The notes under the pieces were generated by a model. The model searched no databases, was not told where the DNA came from, and saw only the letters and a list, made by a program, of their open reading frames with translations. DNA of 33,543 nt from Myxococcales bacterium. GTDB lineage: Bacteria > Myxococcota_A > Polyangia > Haliangiales > Haliangiaceae. Position numbers and translations under genes: made by a program. The first letter of the stretch is position 1. Every line of letters begins with the position of its first letter. The DNA lies in NCBI GenBank assembly GCA_016794545.1, contig JAEUJX010000631.1, positions 1 to 33,543 on the forward strand, read 5' to 3'. Below, piece by piece: positions 1,951 through 17,300 of this stretch.

Positions 1951-2370
1951 TCAGTGTGCCGCGGCGCCCGTGCGTCCGGCGCGAGCGCCGACCGCCTGAC
2001 GGTTCGACGCGCGGACGAGCGCCGCCTGCAGATCGGCGCTCTCGGGCGCGTCGGCTGCGGTACGCGCGAGAGCGTGCTTGAGGCGCTCCTCCGCCTGCCG
2101 CGCCCGCGCGACGTCGATCTCCGCCGCGAACTCGGCCGTATCGGCGAGCACGGTCACGAGGTCGTCGAGGACCTCGAGGATGCCGCCGCTGACCGCGACG
2201 TAGTGGTCCGCGCCCTTCGTCCGGTAGCGGAGCTCGCCGGTGCCGAGCGCCGTGAGGAAGTTCACGTGCTCCGGCAGGACGCCGAACTGGCCGAGGACGC
2301 CGGGCGCGTAGACCTCCTCGATGTCGGTGTCGAGGAGCTGCCTCTCGGGCGTGACGAGCAGAAGTCGCAT
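1951..2370 (-). CDS. atpC: ATP synthase F1 epsilon subunit
   Basis: Epsilon subunit (139 residues) of the F1 central stalk, which couples rotation and regulates ATP hydrolysis. The N-terminal beta-sandwich is recognisable from LLLVTPERQLLD, then GQFGVLPEHVNFLTALGTGELRY and the VSGGILEV stretch (about residues 3-70). The C-terminal helical hairpin (about 85-125) is Ala/Arg-rich. Length is normal for the family. It is the last gene of the operon, 19 bases after atpD. The leader between them has no good Shine-Dalgarno. Confidence 0.97.
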   Translation of the reverse strand: MRLLLVTPERQLLDTDIEEVYAPGVLGQFGVLPEHVNFLTALGTGELRYRTKGADHYVAVSGGILEVLDDLVTVLADTAEFAAEIDVARARQAEERLKHALARTAADAPESADLQAALVRASNRQAVGARAGRTGAAAH

Positions 2371-2389: not shown

Positions 2390-6292
<3,903 letters not shown>

Positions 6293-6305: not shown

Positions 6306-6833
6306 CTACTTGGTGAGCTCGTCGCGGAGGTTGCGGAGCTGAGTGCGGAGGGAGCCGTCGTAGACCCGGTCACCGACCTTGGCGACCACGCCGCCGAGGA
6401 GCTCCGGGTCGTGCTTGGTGGTGACCGCGACCTTCTTGCCCGAGAGCTTCTCGAGCGCGGCCGTGATCTGGGAGAGCTGCGAGGGGTCGAGCGGCTTGGC
6501 CGAGGTGACCTCGGCGGTGACGCGCCCGCCCTTGGCCTCGATCATCGCGTCCAGCTCGCGCGAGATCGCCGGGAGTGCACCGAGCCGCTCGCCGTCGAGC
6601 AGCAGGTACACGAGGTTCTTGGTCAGGCCGTGCGCGGCGATCCGCTGGAGCAGCCCGTCGAGGACCTTGCGGCGATCGCCACGGCGGATCGCGGGGTTGG
6701 TGAGCGCGGTCTGCAGCTCGGCCGAGGTCTTCATGGCCGCGGCGAGCGCGCGAAGATCGCTGCCGATCTTCTCGGTGTTGCCGAGCTCGATGATCGCCTT
6801 CGCGTAACGGCGGGCGAGGCTACCGGACGCCAT
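6306..6833 (-). CDS. atpH: ATP synthase F1 delta subunit (peripheral-stalk connector)
   Basis: Delta (OSCP-like) subunit, 175 residues, linking the b/b' stalk to the top of the alpha-beta hexamer. The start MASGSLARRYAKAI is the family signature (ARRYAKAL-like). The C-terminal domain contains AEVTSAKPL and the diagnostic DPELLGGVVAKVGDRVYDGS. The ATG at 6833 overlaps the atpF stop as TGATG, and CAGGAG eight bases upstream is a plausible ribosome binding site. The open frame runs further upstream in antisense-like composition, but only this part is the gene. Confidence 0.97.
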   Translation of the reverse strand: MASGSLARRYAKAIIELGNTEKIGSDLRALAAAMKTSAELQTALTNPAIRRGDRRKVLDGLLQRIAAHGLTKNLVYLLLDGERLGALPAISRELDAMIEAKGGRVTAEVTSAKPLDPSQLSQITAALEKLSGKKVAVTTKHDPELLGGVVAKVGDRVYDGSLRTQLRNLRDELTK

Positions 6834-7678
6834 CAGGCACGCTCCTGGACGCTGGAGATGAAGTTCCCGACCAGCTTGGCCTGATCGGCCGGCTGCATCT
6901 TCTCGCGCAACAGCTTCTCGGTCGCGGCGGCCGCGGCGGCGGTGACCTCGCGGGTCAGCTGCGCGCGCGCCAGCTCGATCTCGGCGGCGATCCGCGTCTC
7001 GGCGTCGCGCTTCATCTGCGCGGCCTGCCGCTCGGCGGCCTCGAGGATGCGCGCCTTCTCGGCCTCGGCATCCTTCTGCATGCCGTCGACCATCGACTTG
7101 ATCTGGCTGTCCGCGTCCTTCAGCTTGCCCTCGAACTCGGCGAGCTTGTCCGCGGCCTGCTGGCGCAGCTTCGCGGCCTCGTCGAGCGCGGTCTTGATCT
7201 GATCGTGGCGATCGGCGGCGAGCTTGCCGACGACCGGCCCGCCCTTCCACACGAGGATCCCGAGGAGCAGGAGGAAGTTCAGCACCATGAAGACGAACGG
7301 AGGAGACATCGGCTCCTCCTCGGCCTTCTTGCCCGGGTGGTGCGAATCCATCACGACCTGACCGGTCGCCGGATCGACCATCTTGCCGTCGCCGAGCGGG
7401 CCGCCGTAGACGTCCTTGCCGCGGTAGCTGAACCCGAAGAAGTTGAACTGGTGCGTGGGATCGTGGTGACCCGCGTGCGCGTTCGCGTCCTTCGGCAGCT
7501 CCTGCGAGACGCCCGGCACATCCTTGTTGCCGGTGGGCTCGGGCGGACCCTCGTCGGAGGGCGGCGCGAAGCCGTGGTCCGGACGGGCGCTGCCGGAGCC
7601 TGCCTGCTCGGCGGGCTGCGCGTGGGCGACGCCGCCCGCGAGGAGCGCGGCGATGATGAGGTACTTCTTCAGCATCAT
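6833..7678 (-). CDS. atpF: ATP synthase F0 b subunit with signal peptide and long periplasmic extension
   Basis: Peripheral-stalk b subunit, 281 residues against the usual 155-190. Residues 1-20 look like a cleavable signal peptide ending AHA. Then comes a segment of about 105 residues rich in Pro, Gly, Asp and His (for example NAHAGHHDPTHQ). The single membrane helix is about 127-145 (PPFVFMVLNFLLLLGILVWK), followed by the long Ala/Glu/Lys coiled coil typical of b. The extra N-terminal part would lie in the periplasm. A strong Shine-Dalgarno GGGAGG lies 8 bases before the ATGATG start, directly after the b' stop. The family assignment is firm; the function of the extension is unknown. Confidence 0.93.
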   Translation of the reverse strand: MMLKKYLIIAALLAGGVAHAQPAEQAGSGSARPDHGFAPPSDEGPPEPTGNKDVPGVSQELPKDANAHAGHHDPTHQFNFFGFSYRGKDVYGGPLGDGKMVDPATGQVVMDSHHPGKKAEEEPMSPPFVFMVLNFLLLLGILVWKGGPVVGKLAADRHDQIKTALDEAAKLRQQAADKLAEFEGKLKDADSQIKSMVDGMQKDAEAEKARILEAAERQAAQMKRDAETRIAAEIELARAQLTREVTAAAAAATEKLLREKMQPADQAKLVGNFISSVQERA

Positions 7679-8149
7679 CTAGGCGACCTCCCGGCCGAGC
7701 AGCTTCGACGCGATCGTCTTCGCGAGCGCATCGGCCTGCGGCATGAGCTGGCTGCGCGCGGCGTTCGTCTCGGCGCGCATCTTCTCCTGCGCCTCGTCGA
7801 TCGCCTTCTGCGCCGACGCGCGGGCCTTGTCGGTGACGTCCTTCTCGTGTGCGGCGGCGGCCGCGCGGACCTTGCGGCCCTCCTCGTTCGCGCGGTCGCG
7901 TGCGACGGCGAGCGACTTCTCGAACTCGGCGAGCTTCGCGTCGGCGGTCGCGGTCATCCGCTCGGCCTCGGCGCGGGCGCCCTCGATGCCGGCCTTGCGT
8001 CGCTCGCGCAGCGCCAGGTACGGCTTGAACAGCAGCTTGTTCGCGATCACGTAGACCAGCAGGAACAGCGCGAACTGGACGACCGCCGTGAGATCGAGAT
8101 CGATCAGCGGCTGTCCTGACGCAATGGTTACGAGCGGCGTCTGGTCCAT
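7679..8149 (-). CDS. atpF': ATP synthase F0 b' subunit
   Basis: Second b-type subunit (156 residues), forming a b/b' heterodimer stalk as in cyanobacteria, alphaproteobacteria and many deltaproteobacteria. The N-terminal membrane helix is about residues 20-42 (LTAVVQFALFLLVYVIANKL), followed by PYLALRERRKAGIEGA, a conserved b' segment, and a coiled coil to the C-terminus. It has no signal peptide, unlike the neighbouring b. It is the first gene of the operon, about 42 bases downstream of the predicted transcription start; the Shine-Dalgarno is weak (AAGAGA). Confidence 0.93.
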   Translation of the reverse strand: MDQTPLVTIASGQPLIDLDLTAVVQFALFLLVYVIANKLLFKPYLALRERRKAGIEGARAEAERMTATADAKLAEFEKSLAVARDRANEEGRKVRAAAAAHEKDVTDKARASAQKAIDEAQEKMRAETNAARSQLMPQADALAKTIASKLLGREVA

Positions 8150-8197
8150 TGTTTCTCTTGCGCAACCTGGCGAGAATCCAGGGGGTTGGGCGCGGGT

Positions 8198-8226
8198 CTT
8201 ATAGTCGCCACCCGCGCGGGTGTCAA
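8198..8226 (-). promoter_or_regulatory. Near-consensus sigma-70 promoter of the ATP synthase operon
   Basis: On the minus strand a perfect -35 TTGACA (8226-8221) is followed by exactly 17 bases and a -10 TATAAG (8203-8198, 5 of 6 consensus bases). Transcription should start near 8191, giving a leader of about 42 bases before the b' ATG. This is the only near-consensus housekeeping promoter I can see in the window. It lies about 70 bases from the divergent kinase start. Confidence 0.85.
8209..8222. promoter_or_regulatory. Perfect 14-bp palindrome inside the atp promoter spacer (candidate operator)
   Basis: CACCCGCGCGGGTG at 8209-8222 is its own reverse complement. It occupies most of the spacer and touches the -35 box of the ATP synthase promoter. 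A protein bound here would directly control RNA polymerase access. In a GC-rich genome a chance palindrome is possible, but the position is suggestive. Confidence 0.45.
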
Positions 8227-8282
8227 CGGTGGGATGCTCGTGGATTCTCGACGGTGCTGCGACAATGCGCCGCTCCGGCGGC

Positions 8283-8296: not shown

Positions 8297-10204
8297 ATGT
8301 CCAAGGGTGCTCCGGTCGACGACTTCGACACGCAGTCCCTGTGGTGTGCCATGGAGACGGCGGCCGAGCTCACCCAGCTCGGGGTGTACGTCGCCCGGAT
8401 CGATACGACTCCCCCGCAGATCGTCTACGCAAGTCCGCGCGCCGCACAGCTCATCGGCCGGACGGCCGCCGAGCTGATCGGAGGAGTTCCGTGGTCGATC
8501 CTCCGGGAGTCCGACTGGCCCTCAGTCCAGGCGGCGATCGCCCGCCCTGCCGGTGCCCCGCCGCTCGCGTTTCACGTCACGATCGCCCGGCCCGATGGCA
8601 AGGAGATCCCGATCGAGCTCGCGGCCACCCGGATCGTCACGCCGCGCGGCACCTACGTGTTCGGCTACTTCCGCGACGTCTCGATCGAGCGCGAGGCGGT
8701 GCGAGCCCTCCGCGCCTCCGAGGCCCGGTTCCGCTTCCTGGTCGAGGCCGCTCCGGATGGCGTGGTGATCCTGGTCCGCGGGACGATCGTGTTCATGAAC
8801 CCGCGGGCGGCCGCGCTGCTCGGCGCGGAGAGCCCGGCGGTCGCGATCGGCAAGCCGGTCGTCGCCTACCTCCCCCCCGAGGATGCACAGCGCGCGATGG
8901 ACCGCATCGCGGAGATGTTCCGCACCGGCGGGGAGATGCCGCCGACCGAGTACCGCACGCTCGCGAACCCCGATCGCGCGATCGAGATCAAGAGCGTGCG
9001 CTGCGACTGGGAGGGCCAGCCCGGCGTGCTCGCGTTCGCCCGCGACGTCACCGAGCGCAACGCGATCCAGCGCCGCCTCGTCGACGCCGACCGGCTCGCC
9101 GCGATGGGCACGCTCGCGGCCGGCGTCGCGCACGAGATCAACAACCCGCTGACCTACGCCCTGCTCGGCACGCAGCGGATCGAGGCCCTCGTCGCGGATC
9201 CGCGGCTGCCGCCCGAGATCGTCGGGACGATCCGCGACCGGCTCGCCGAGATCCAGCACGGCATCACGCGCGTCGCCTCGATCACCTCGGGGCTGCGCTC
9301 GTTCGCGCGCCCCGACGACACCTCGCTCGGCCCCGTCGATCTCTCGGCCACCCTCGACCAGGCGCTTCGCATGGTCGACAACGACCTGCGCCACAAGGCC
9401 GAGCTCGTCCGCCACGTCCAGCACGTGCCTCCCGTGCTCGGCAACTCGTCGCGCCTCGAACAGGTGTTCGTCAACATCCTGCTCAACGCGATCCAGTCCC
9501 TCCCCACCGACGGCAGTCACACCATCACCGTCGCGCTCGCGCCGCGCGGTGATGACAGGGTCACGCTCTCGATCACCGACACCGGCCGCGGCATTCCCGA
9601 CGAGATCCGCAGCAAGATCTTCGATCCGTTCTTCACGACGCGCCGGATCGGCGAGGGCATGGGGCTCGGCCTTTCCGTGTGCAAGACGATCGTCGAGGGC
9701 TTCGGCGGTGCGATCGAGGTCGCATCGCGGCCCGGCGCCGGCACCACGATGACCGTCGTGCTCGTCGCCAGCCGCGCCGTCACCGCCTCCGCCACCTCCG
9801 CCGCGTCCGGTCCGCGCCCTCCGGCCGCGAGCGGCGTGCGGCGCAAGATCCTGATCATCGACGACGAGCGCCTCGTCCGCGACGCGCTCACCCGCCTGCT
9901 CCAGGCCGACCACGAGGTGGTCTCGACCTCGAGCGGCGAGGCCGGTCTCGCCGCGCTCGACGCGGGCGGCTTCGACGTCATCATCTGCGACGTGATGATG
10001 CCCAACATGAACGGCCGCGAGGTCCACCGCCGCGTCGCGGCGAGCCACCCCGGCCTCGAGCGCCGCCTGGTCTTCATCTCGGGCGGCACGTTCGCGCCCG
10101 AGCTCGACGAGTTCCTCGCGACCACGCCGAACCGCTGCCTCGCCAAGCCGTTCAAGCTCGACGACGTGTTCGCGGCGATCGAGGCGACCTGCGCCGACGC
10201 GTAG
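8297..10204 (+). CDS. Soluble hybrid histidine kinase: PAS-PAS-HisKA-HATPase-receiver
   Basis: A 635-residue hybrid sensor kinase without any membrane segment, so the signal is probably cytoplasmic. Domains: first PAS about 15-135, second PAS about 140-260 (starts near SEARFRFLVEAAPDGVV), dimerisation/phosphoacceptor helix with VAHEINNPL (H279), HATPase about 375-500 (N-box VNILLNAIQ, G1 DTGRGIP, G2 GMGLGLSV), an Ala/Pro linker, and a C-terminal receiver about 516-635 with acidic pair IIDDE, phosphoacceptor D565 (ICDVMMPNMNG) and KPF. The AHEINNP form of the H-box is of the NtrB-like/HisKA_4 class common in myxobacteria. An in-frame extension to 8186 exists, but ATG 8297 is better because it follows a promoter-like element and the extension would overlap the atp promoter. 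The bactofilin follows after 18 bases. Confidence 0.94.
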   Translation: MSKGAPVDDFDTQSLWCAMETAAELTQLGVYVARIDTTPPQIVYASPRAAQLIGRTAAELIGGVPWSILRESDWPSVQAAIARPAGAPPLAFHVTIARPDGKEIPIELAATRIVTPRGTYVFGYFRDVSIEREAVRALRASEARFRFLVEAAPDGVVILVRGTIVFMNPRAAALLGAESPAVAIGKPVVAYLPPEDAQRAMDRIAEMFRTGGEMPPTEYRTLANPDRAIEIKSVRCDWEGQPGVLAFARDVTERNAIQRRLVDADRLAAMGTLAAGVAHEINNPLTYALLGTQRIEALVADPRLPPEIVGTIRDRLAEIQHGITRVASITSGLRSFARPDDTSLGPVDLSATLDQALRMVDNDLRHKAELVRHVQHVPPVLGNSSRLEQVFVNILLNAIQSLPTDGSHTITVALAPRGDDRVTLSITDTGRGIPDEIRSKIFDPFFTTRRIGEGMGLGLSVCKTIVEGFGGAIEVASRPGAGTTMTVVLVASRAVTASATSAASGPRPPAASGVRRKILIIDDERLVRDALTRLLQADHEVVSTSSGEAGLAALDAGGFDVIICDVMMPNMNGREVHRRVAASHPGLERRLVFISGGTFAPELDEFLATTPNRCLAKPFKLDDVFAAIEATCADA

Positions 10205-10222: not shown

Positions 10223-10627
10223 ATGGTGGCAGCCAAGCAAGCTCCGATGGGTGAGATCACGACGCTCCTGGGCCCCGGCGCGCAGTTCGAGGGCAAGCTG
10301 ACGTTCGACGGCACGGTCCGCATCGACGGCCGGTTCAAGGGCGAGGTGTTCTCCGACGACACGCTCGTGATCGGCGAGGGCGCGGTGGTCGAGGCCGAGA
10401 TCGAGATCGGCGACGTCATCATCCAGGGCGTCGTCGTCGGCAACATCAAGGCGAAGCGCTCGATCGAGATCCACGCGCCCGGCCGCGTGAAGGGCGACCT
10501 CCACACGCCGTCGCTCCAGATCGCGAAGGGCGTGATCTTCGAGGGCCGCTCGTTCATGGAGGCCGCGGCCGGCGGGCTCAAGCCGCCCGCCCCTGCGAAG
10601 CCGGCACAGCCGACGCCCGTCAAGTAG
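10223..10627 (+). CDS. Bactofilin (polymer-forming cytoskeletal protein)
   Basis: Bactofilin of 134 residues. The central right-handed beta-helix (about 12-105) shows the typical six-residue periodicity of hydrophobic and Gly residues, with GAQFEGKLTFDGTVRIDGRF and GDVIIQGVVVGNIKAK matching the family core. The tails are short, and the C-terminus is Pro/Ala/Lys-rich (KPPAPAKPAQPTPVK). Bactofilins self-assemble without nucleotide into filaments at the cytoplasmic membrane and act in cell shape, chromosome positioning or stalk and motility functions. It lies 18 bases after the hybrid kinase, so co-expression is possible. The stop TAG is directly adjacent to the stop of the convergent gene, with no spacer. 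Confidence 0.93.
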   Translation: MVAAKQAPMGEITTLLGPGAQFEGKLTFDGTVRIDGRFKGEVFSDDTLVIGEGAVVEAEIEIGDVIIQGVVVGNIKAKRSIEIHAPGRVKGDLHTPSLQIAKGVIFEGRSFMEAAAGGLKPPAPAKPAQPTPVK

Positions 10628-14353: not shown

Positions 14354-17300
14354 TCAACGTTTCATCTTCGCGTCGATCGCGAGCTCGCCGTTCGCGGGCC
14401 ACTCGAGATCCTGAACGTACGGCTGGTAGTCCTTGAGCCGCAGCTCGATCTTCCGGGCGGAGTCCATGTCCACGTCGCTGATCGTCTTGGGCGCGCGGCC
14501 GCGCGGCTCGCCGTTGATGTAGATCTCGGCGCCGTCGGGCGTGCTGATGATGCGCAGCTTGCCGGTGATCGGCTTCAGCAGCGCCATCACCGCGATCTCG
14601 CCGCCGGTCTTCGGCACGTCGACCTCGGCGTCGATGTACGGCTTGTGGCGCGCGAGCTCCACCTTCACCTCGTGACGCGAGCCGACCGGCACGCCCTCGA
14701 CGGTGACCGGGGTCTTCTCCGTGAGCTTCGTCCCATCCCACGTGACCTGCGCACCGGCCGGCACCGAGTCGATGCGCACCTTGCCGGTCTCCGGCGCCGT
14801 CTCCCGCGAGGTCCGGATGATGAGGAACGTCACGCCCGCCGCGACGGAGAGCGCGAGGATCGCCGCGATGATGTAGGTGAACATCCGGCGCCGCGCCGCG
14901 CCGAGCTTGTACTGCGACGGCAGCTCGTCGACCTCGAACAGCCGCATCTGCCCGGTCAGCGTCATCGCCTTCTGACCGGGCTGGAACTGATAGAGCGCGC
15001 CGGGGGTCACGTGTGGCTGCGGACCCGGCGGCTGCTGCGGATAGCCCGGCTGCTGCGGATAGCCCTGCGGCGAGGAGCCCGGCTGCTGCGGATAGCCTTG
15101 CTGCTGCGGATAGCCCTGCGGCGAGTAGCCCGGCTGCTGCGGATAGCCCTGCGGCGAGTAGCCCGGCTGCTGCGGGTAGCCCGGCTGCTGCGGATAGCCA
15201 GGCTGCTGCGGATAGCCCGGCTGCTGCGGATAGCCAGGCTGGCCGTAGCCGGGCATCACCGTCGCCATGGCCATCGGCAAGCCGGAGGCGTCGGTCGCGT
15301 AGGGCGACTGCTGGCCCGGCGTCGCGTACGGGAACTGCTGCGGCGGAGCGGGCATCGGGGCCGGCTGCGCGTGCTGCGGCATCTGCATCGGCGGCGGCGG
15401 CGTCGGCGGAGGCGGCTGCGGCTGCGGCTGCGGCTGCGACGCCATGGCCGGTGCCGGCTGCGGCTGCGGAGCGCGTGGGACCGGCATCGGCTCGTTCGAC
15501 TGCTTGTTGACGATCTGCTGCAGCACGTTCGGTTGCTGCACCACCGGCACGCCACCCTGGGGCGTGCGCTGGCTCTTGCGAGGCTTGCGCAGCTCGCTGA
15601 CCGCGGGAGCGTGGATCTTCGCCGCGAGCGCCGCGGGCGGCGGCTGGTGCTTCTTCCCGACGACCTTGGGCCTGTCCTGCCGGAAGTCGCGAGCGACCGT
15701 CGGTCCTTCCTCGTCGCCGCGCACCGCCGCATGTCCGTCGAGCGTCGGCGCGTCCTCGTCCTCTTCGTCCTCGTCCTCGCCCTCGTCCTCGACACCGGTG
15801 TCGAGGGTGTCCTCGCCGGGCGGGCGCGGGATATCGCTGACGAGCGTGGCGTCGACCGGCTCGTCGCCGTCCATCATGAACCCGCCGCCCGGCGCGCCCA
15901 TGCCGCTCGGCGCGGTGATCATCGTGCGCTCGCCGATGTTCTCGAGCTCGTCACCGCCGGCGTCGGTCTCGGTCGCGTCCCACGCGCTCGCGCTGACCTT
16001 CTTGCCCGAAGGCATGAGCAGGCCGCTCAGGTCGTCGGTGCCACCGGGGGCCGCGAAGTCGAGCTGCCGCGTCTCCTCGTTCGGGTTCTTGCGCGGCTGC
16101 GGCATCGCTTTCGCCGGCAGCGGCTTCGCGGGGGTCGGCTGCACCACGCGCGGGATCGGCATCGCCGGCGTCGGCTGCTTGCCCGCCGGCCCCGGTGCGG
16201 GTCCGCTCGGCCGGCCGATCGACGACAGCTTCGCGCCGCCCTGCCCCGGCGGCGGCCGCACCTGACCCGCGACGATCGGCGGCGGCTCGGTGTCGGCGTG
16301 AGCGCGCGTCGAGTTCGCCGGGGCGCCGCGCGGCGCGAGCTTCGCGCCGGGCTTCTTCGGCTCCGGGCGCGTGAGCTCCTCCGGCTCGCCGGGCTTCTTC
16401 AGCTCCGACGGGCGGAAGATCACCGAGTTCTCGTCGTGCAGCTCGCGCCCGTCGTGCACGAGGTCGTTGGTGTCGAGCGTGAACGTCGCGTTCGCGCCCT
16501 CGTGGATCTCGATGCTCGGGAAGTCCGCCTGCGGAGGCACGGCCTCGGGCTCGCCGACGATCTTCTTGACCATCTGGCTGACCTTCGCGGCGGTGAACAC
16601 CGGCGAGTACGTGTGGAGGAACCGCTCGAGGTCCGCCGCGAGATCGCCCGCGCTCTGATAGCGCTCGCCGGGCAGCCGCTGCAGCGCGTGCATCACGATC
16701 TTCTCGAGCTGCGGCGGGATGCCCTTGCGCAGCGTGCTCGGCGGCTTGATGTCCGCCTTGCGCGCCATGTCGAGGAGCTTGTGCAGATCCTCCTCGAGGT
16801 AGAGCATCTGCCCGACGATCATCTCGTACAGCACGATGCCCGCCGAGAAGATGTCGCTGCGGTAGTCGATCTGATCGCCCCAGGCCTGCTCGGGGCTCAT
16901 GTAGTAGTACTTGCCCTTGATCACGCCGACCGCGGTCTGGCGCGCCTTCATCGTCGCCTTCGCGATGCCGAAGTCGACGAGCTTCACCTCTCCCGAGTAG
17001 GAGACGAGCACGTTCTGCGGCGAGACATCGCGGTGCACGATCCCGAGCGGGCGCCCGGTGTGGTCCTTCTTCCGGTGCGCGTGATCGAGCGCGCTCGCGA
17101 TCTCCTTGCCGATGAACGCGCACACGTCGAGCGGCATCTCGTGATCGATCTCGGAGCCGCGGCGCAGGATCTTGTAGAGGTCCGCGCCGTCGACGTACTC
17201 CATCGTGATGTAGTACGTGTCGCCGACGCGGCCGAGGTCGAACGTCTGGGCGATGTTGCCGTGCGTGAGCTGCACGGCGATCTTCGCCTCGTCGACCAGC

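Follow-up and report, generated by a model that had tools for sequence, protein, structure and literature searches.

The window, by which we mean the whole stretch of 33,543 nucleotides analysed here, carries an ATP synthase operon whose promoter holds a perfect palindrome in its spacer. This raises the question of whether the operon is under dedicated control and, if so, which sequence would carry that control. Downstream of the promoter, the genes follow the order b′, b, delta, alpha, gamma, beta, epsilon:

7679 to 8149, minus strand: ATP synthase b/b′-type subunit, first gene of the operon (atpF′; PF00430, E 2.6e-15)
6833 to 7678, minus strand: ATP synthase b subunit, long N-terminal extension (PF00430, residues 128-257 of 281)
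6306 to 6830, minus strand: ATP synthase delta subunit (PF00213, E 2.5e-46)
4751 to 6292, minus strand: ATP synthase alpha subunit (PF00006 and PF00306)
3838 to 4746, minus strand: ATP synthase gamma subunit (PF00231)
2390 to 3838, minus strand: ATP synthase beta subunit (PF00006 and PF02874)
1951 to 2370, minus strand: ATP synthase epsilon subunit (PF02823)

In the second b-type subunit (6833-7678, minus strand), about 127 residues stand ahead of the ATP-synt_B domain.

The promoter reads TTGACACCCGCGCGGGTGGCGACTATAAG on the minus strand (8226 to 8198) and consists of a −35 TTGACA, a 17-bp spacer and a −10 TATAAG. A search of 56 genomes located the b′ gene in 51, and 30 loci, including the window's own, were compared. 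The promoter features are as follows:

8221 to 8226, minus strand: −35 hexamer TTGACA; all 30 loci, as anchored, have TTGAC here
8198 to 8203, minus strand: −10 hexamer TATAAG, found in 24 of 30 loci
8209 to 8222, no strand assigned: 14-bp perfect palindrome CACCCGCGCGGGTG, judged coincidental

The earlier note had described this arrangement, with a palindrome touching the −35, and had assigned it to the ATP synthase operon; both statements were confirmed. Where TATAAG is present, the spacer before it measures 17 bp in 15 loci and 18 bp in 9. Hexamers near TTGACA and TATAAT, separated by 16-18 bp and conserved over the family, are those of a sigma-70-type promoter, and since 24 of the 30 related loci have TATAAG in the corresponding position, we take this promoter to be real, conserved and of the ordinary housekeeping (sigma-70-like) type. 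It resembles such promoters in its TTGACA-17-TATAAG layout, its correct placement before the operon and its family-wide conservation; it differs in the conserved element that abuts it upstream, and otherwise in nothing that matters. In the 5′ leader of atpF′ (8150-8190, minus strand), genus members share a conserved GGATT(C/A)TCGATAGGTTGCC-like sequence, of which the family retains an altered form; CAGGATTC of this leader is also present at the start of atpZ, in the second ATP synthase operon.

The element directly upstream of the −35 is bipartite, and sequence comparison makes it well supported as a conserved site. Its layout is GGCG-N3-TGTCGCAG, about 19 bp, then GCATC, with the following halves in the window:

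8257 to 8273, minus strand: upstream half, GCGGCGCATTGTCGCAG, the sole exact match of this 17-mer in the genome and conserved in the family
8227 to 8237, minus strand: promoter-proximal half, GCATCCCACCG, abutting the −35; GCATC begins 26 bp after GTCGCA begins

The sequence shared by the family at the edge of the −35 is GCATCCCACSG. In 22 of the 30 promoters GTCGCA occurs no more than 60 bp ahead of the −35, and its distance to GCATC, counted with variants allowed at the first and last base of GCATC, is 25-27 bp in 21 of those 22 and 37 bp in the genus member G011. Across 14 genus genomes, mean pairwise identity is 0.98 for TTGACA and 0.63 for the 12 bp abutting the −35, and amounts to 0.27-0.29, the background level, at 55-160 bp upstream of the −35; G009 and G011 were left out of the identity figures, as their promoters differ in −10 spacing or in element spacing. 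The element is missing or degenerate in genus members G005, G009 and G010, and TGTCGCA was present in none of 20 order- or class-level loci (420 bp upstream of b′). A profile built from 12 of the 22 atpF′ elements with GTCGCA, the window genome being held out, recovered the window element at E 1.7e-11. Neither half is enriched before TTGAC in the window genome as a whole: GTCGCA-N30..33-TTGAC gave 5 sites against 15 for the reversed control, and GCATC-N5..7-TTGAC 19 against 14.

The same element recurs at a second ATP synthase operon. The 8.49-Mb window genome was searched with the atpF′ 17-mer alone, before the other atp operon was inspected, yielding one exact site and six with two mismatches. 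One of the latter, C272:8366, falls 850 bp ahead of the atpB match and inside the codons of an AtpZ-type gene (PF09527) that is followed by an AtpI-type gene (PF03899) and then by atpB. At up to three mismatches the 17-mer had 96 sites, against 132 for the reversed control; thus, the motif alone is not enriched. Among 30 family genomes the bipartite pattern gave 40 matches, with 16 at atpF′, 11 at atpZ and 13 elsewhere, against 8 for the reversed pattern. The window genome holds exactly two matches, one at the atpF′ promoter and the other in the first atpZ codons. Six genus genomes, including the window's, have exactly the two atp matches and no other, and both atp sites are matched in 10 of 16. 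Both the pattern and the codon window considered below were picked after the sequences had been seen. A wider regulon was rejected, the 13 non-atp matches standing against 8 in the control across the 30 genomes, and no further member is claimed.

The atpZ promoter, TTGACG-17-TACCAG, has a near-leaderless ATG, and the element falls in codons ~9-23. About 5 nt separate the predicted atpZ start from the conserved ATG (L099, G000:C272, ~588-690), so the atpZ message is probably leaderless. Of the 15 listed atpZ loci with TGTCGCA, 12 have 27 bp from GTCGCA to GCATC and G002 has 36 bp; no GCATC was found near the atpZ TGTCGCA in G009 and G020. The two spacing outliers, 37 bp at atpF′ of G011 and 36 bp at atpZ of G002, are about one helical turn off the 25-27 bp seen elsewhere and, though two cases only, they are easier to reconcile with a protein bound on one helix face than with a fixed-spacer promoter. 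G011 has neither the element nor its peptide in the atpZ coding region (L100, G011:C32, ~420-480 in gene orientation). Upstream of the G011 atpZ promoter, we observed TGCGACAATCCGGCGC, the element core in reverse, and GCATCCGACCG beside the −35; the element may have moved in this genome.

The atpZ copy lies in coding sequence, and it could reflect a conserved N-terminal peptide, [E/D][M/L]SQDS...H, and nothing else, its likeness to the atpF′ element being chance and the latter private to atpF′. The peptide is indeed conserved as well as the DNA, and translation-related bias is possible in N-terminal codons. We therefore considered codon choice in 15 genus atpZ genes, with the rest of the same gene as control; G011, which is without the peptide, and genomes outside the genus were left out. 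Among columns with a conserved residue, 6 of 7 inside the element use a single codon, compared with 1 of 44 outside it (Fisher p 2.7e-6, uncorrected for kinship). The fixed codons are GGC (13/13), TCG (14/14), CAG (14/14), GAT (12/12), CAT (14/14) and GTG (11/11). Constraint thus acts at the nucleotide level inside the atpZ codons at the element. Three observations speak against a peptide alone. The AT-ending GAT and CAT are fixed despite a GC content of 70%, whereas other parts of the gene vary in the codons of their conserved residues; the residue before His varies, yet its codon ends in G and so yields GCATC in all 11 atpZ alignment rows; and the two-part spacing is the same at atpZ and atpF′.

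The reciprocal profile searches are weak, which speaks for the peptide. With a cut-off of E≤1, the atpF′ profile reached the atpZ site, among 69 matches outside atpF′, in 7 of 16 genus genomes, with a best E of 0.051. The atpZ profile was built from 11 elements with the window genome held out, G002, G009 and G010 excluded for spacing or degeneration, and G011 (no atpZ element) and G020 (outside the genus) also outside it; it found atpZ in 15 of 16 genus genomes (2.5e-11 in the held-out window genome) and atpF′ in 2 of 16. This modest cross-recovery implies that the resemblance between the two loci is confined to a short core, and a skeptic could rate it weak. On balance, we regard the peptide as an unlikely explanation for the whole of the atpZ copy.

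The element could also be a promoter in itself, with TGTCGCAG as the −35 and GCATC as the −10 of an alternative sigma factor, giving a second start at both atp operons and, at atpZ, a leaderless short form from a conserved GTG or ATG 8 bp after GCATC. That start codon keeps this explanation alive: GCATC-N8-RTG is retained in atpZ, with V (GTG) in 11 of 13 aligned sequences and ATG in G004 and G014. However, the ~20 bp between the boxes would be long for known bacterial promoters, and the 36-37 bp spacing of the two outliers is ill-suited to a fixed-spacer promoter. We hold such a second promoter to be decidedly improbable.

The earlier note had read the palindrome as a possible operator. A repressor dimer bound there would block RNA polymerase, possibly as a trait specific to this species, and the placement is apt: repressor operators can sit between −35 and −10, and the window dyad lies in the spacer and overlaps the −35. 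The dyad begins with the final two bases of the −35 and takes up 12 of the 17 bp of spacer, leaving GCGAC before the −10. The exact 14-mer has 3 copies in the 8.49-Mb genome against none for the reversed control pattern, and a partial CACC..GGTG symmetry occupies the same spacer in G002, G012 and G014. However, the dyad differs from an operator in lacking both conservation and excess over chance. It was present in 1 of the 30 promoters compared; among the other 29, perfect palindromes in that stretch reach 8 bp at most. Across 13 genus relatives, the true centre gave 33 complementary pairs out of 91, no better than the range of 13-33 obtained when the centre was shifted to twelve other positions. 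The spacer is moderately conserved (mean pairwise identity 0.52 in 14 genus genomes), and in G012 and G014 all 17 of its bases are identical; some constraint on the spacer exists, but not on the dyad.

The frequency of such palindromes likewise follows composition. The 70% GC window has 15 perfect palindromes 14 bp or longer, where Markov models of order 1, 2 and 3 predict 10.0, 9.25 and 12.5. Nor does the palindrome recur at promoters: both other copies in the genome are inside long open frames, the C752 copy being 7 bp from a TTGAC. The 16 genus genomes have 8 copies in total and 11 have none; of the 5 copies in genomes other than the window's, none is on the contig carrying that genome's b′ gene. 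Lack of conservation and a frequency close to that expected from composition are the two outcomes that the earlier note had named as refuting its proposal. The palindrome was accordingly rejected as a conserved operator, and a genuine operator, possibly one confined to this species, is very unlikely; we read it as a composition-driven coincidence in one GC-rich genome, and it serves as a caution that, at 70% GC, a perfect palindrome of 14 bp is nothing unusual. A MerR-type promoter, which likewise has a dyad in its spacer, was rejected as well, since the window dyad is not conserved and its 17-bp spacer is too short compared with the 19-20 bp of that class.

Least credible of all is that the atpF′ element acts as RNA or is the source of a small RNA pairing with atpZ mRNA: the two loci share sense identity over ~16 positions, but the sequence upstream of the atpF′ element is at background identity and so offers no conserved promoter, and the variable N3 is mismatched within a genome (CAT, CCT or CTT at atpF′, AAA or ATT at atpZ), so that small-RNA pairing was rejected for want of covariation in the variable bases.

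We favour shared control of both atp operons through the bipartite element, by a candidate DNA-binding protein, with the palindrome a coincidence; this is, in our judgement, the probable reading, though by no means a secure one. We infer that the element is bound by protein, that one protein binds both copies, and that it coordinates the two operons. The predicted protein would read the element in an activator's position at atpF′ (about −83 to −36) and near the beginning of atpZ-atpI-atpB (about +30 to +75), and would thereby keep F1-plus-b expression in step with that of the membrane-sector genes. An activator would be expected upstream, as at atpF′, and not downstream, as at atpZ; a site upstream of one promoter and downstream of the other is an unusual arrangement and counts against a single activator. 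If the atpF′ operon is under sequence-specific control at all, the bipartite element is a likelier route for it than the palindrome. The dedicated regulator that the earlier note had suggested gains support from an element recurring at a second atp operon, and none from the palindrome through which it was supposed to act.

Where ATP synthase operons are split, the F1 and Fo parts must be made in the right ratio, and to our knowledge few dedicated regulators of this ratio have been described in split-operon bacteria. We tentatively raise the possibility that this deltaproteobacterial family has a regulator dedicated to ATP synthase that sets the ratio of F1 to membrane-sector expression through a site whose exact matches in the window genome are confined to the two split atp operons, one of them lying within atpZ codons. 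The occurrence of the exact pattern at these two operons and nowhere else in the window genome would make F1/Fo co-control directly testable. At the level of titles and the first lines of abstracts, the literature searches turned up no description of such an atp site. The nearest case at that level is Corynebacterium glutamicum, in which SigmaH is reported to control the atp operon (PMC3917460). The two cases are alike in the specific control of ATP synthase genes; they differ in that C. glutamicum employs a sigma factor at a single operon, whereas the window genome has a bipartite candidate site at two split operons.

A sensor gene is encoded divergently next to the promoter:

8297 to 10204, plus strand: divergent PAS hybrid histidine kinase (Pfam HATPase_c, Response_reg, PAS)

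The earlier note had proposed that this kinase could take part in atp control. Among the loci searched, some with less than 1.5 kb upstream, only those of the window genome and G013 have this kinase or a relative of it next to atp, and it was dropped as a regulatory partner for that reason. Directly after it lies a bactofilin gene (10223-10627, plus strand). Farther along the window, a 20-bp perfect palindrome, CCTCGACACCGGTGTCGAGG, longer than the promoter's, occupies 15787-15806 in coding sequence, inside a large Ser/Thr kinase-PEGA open frame.
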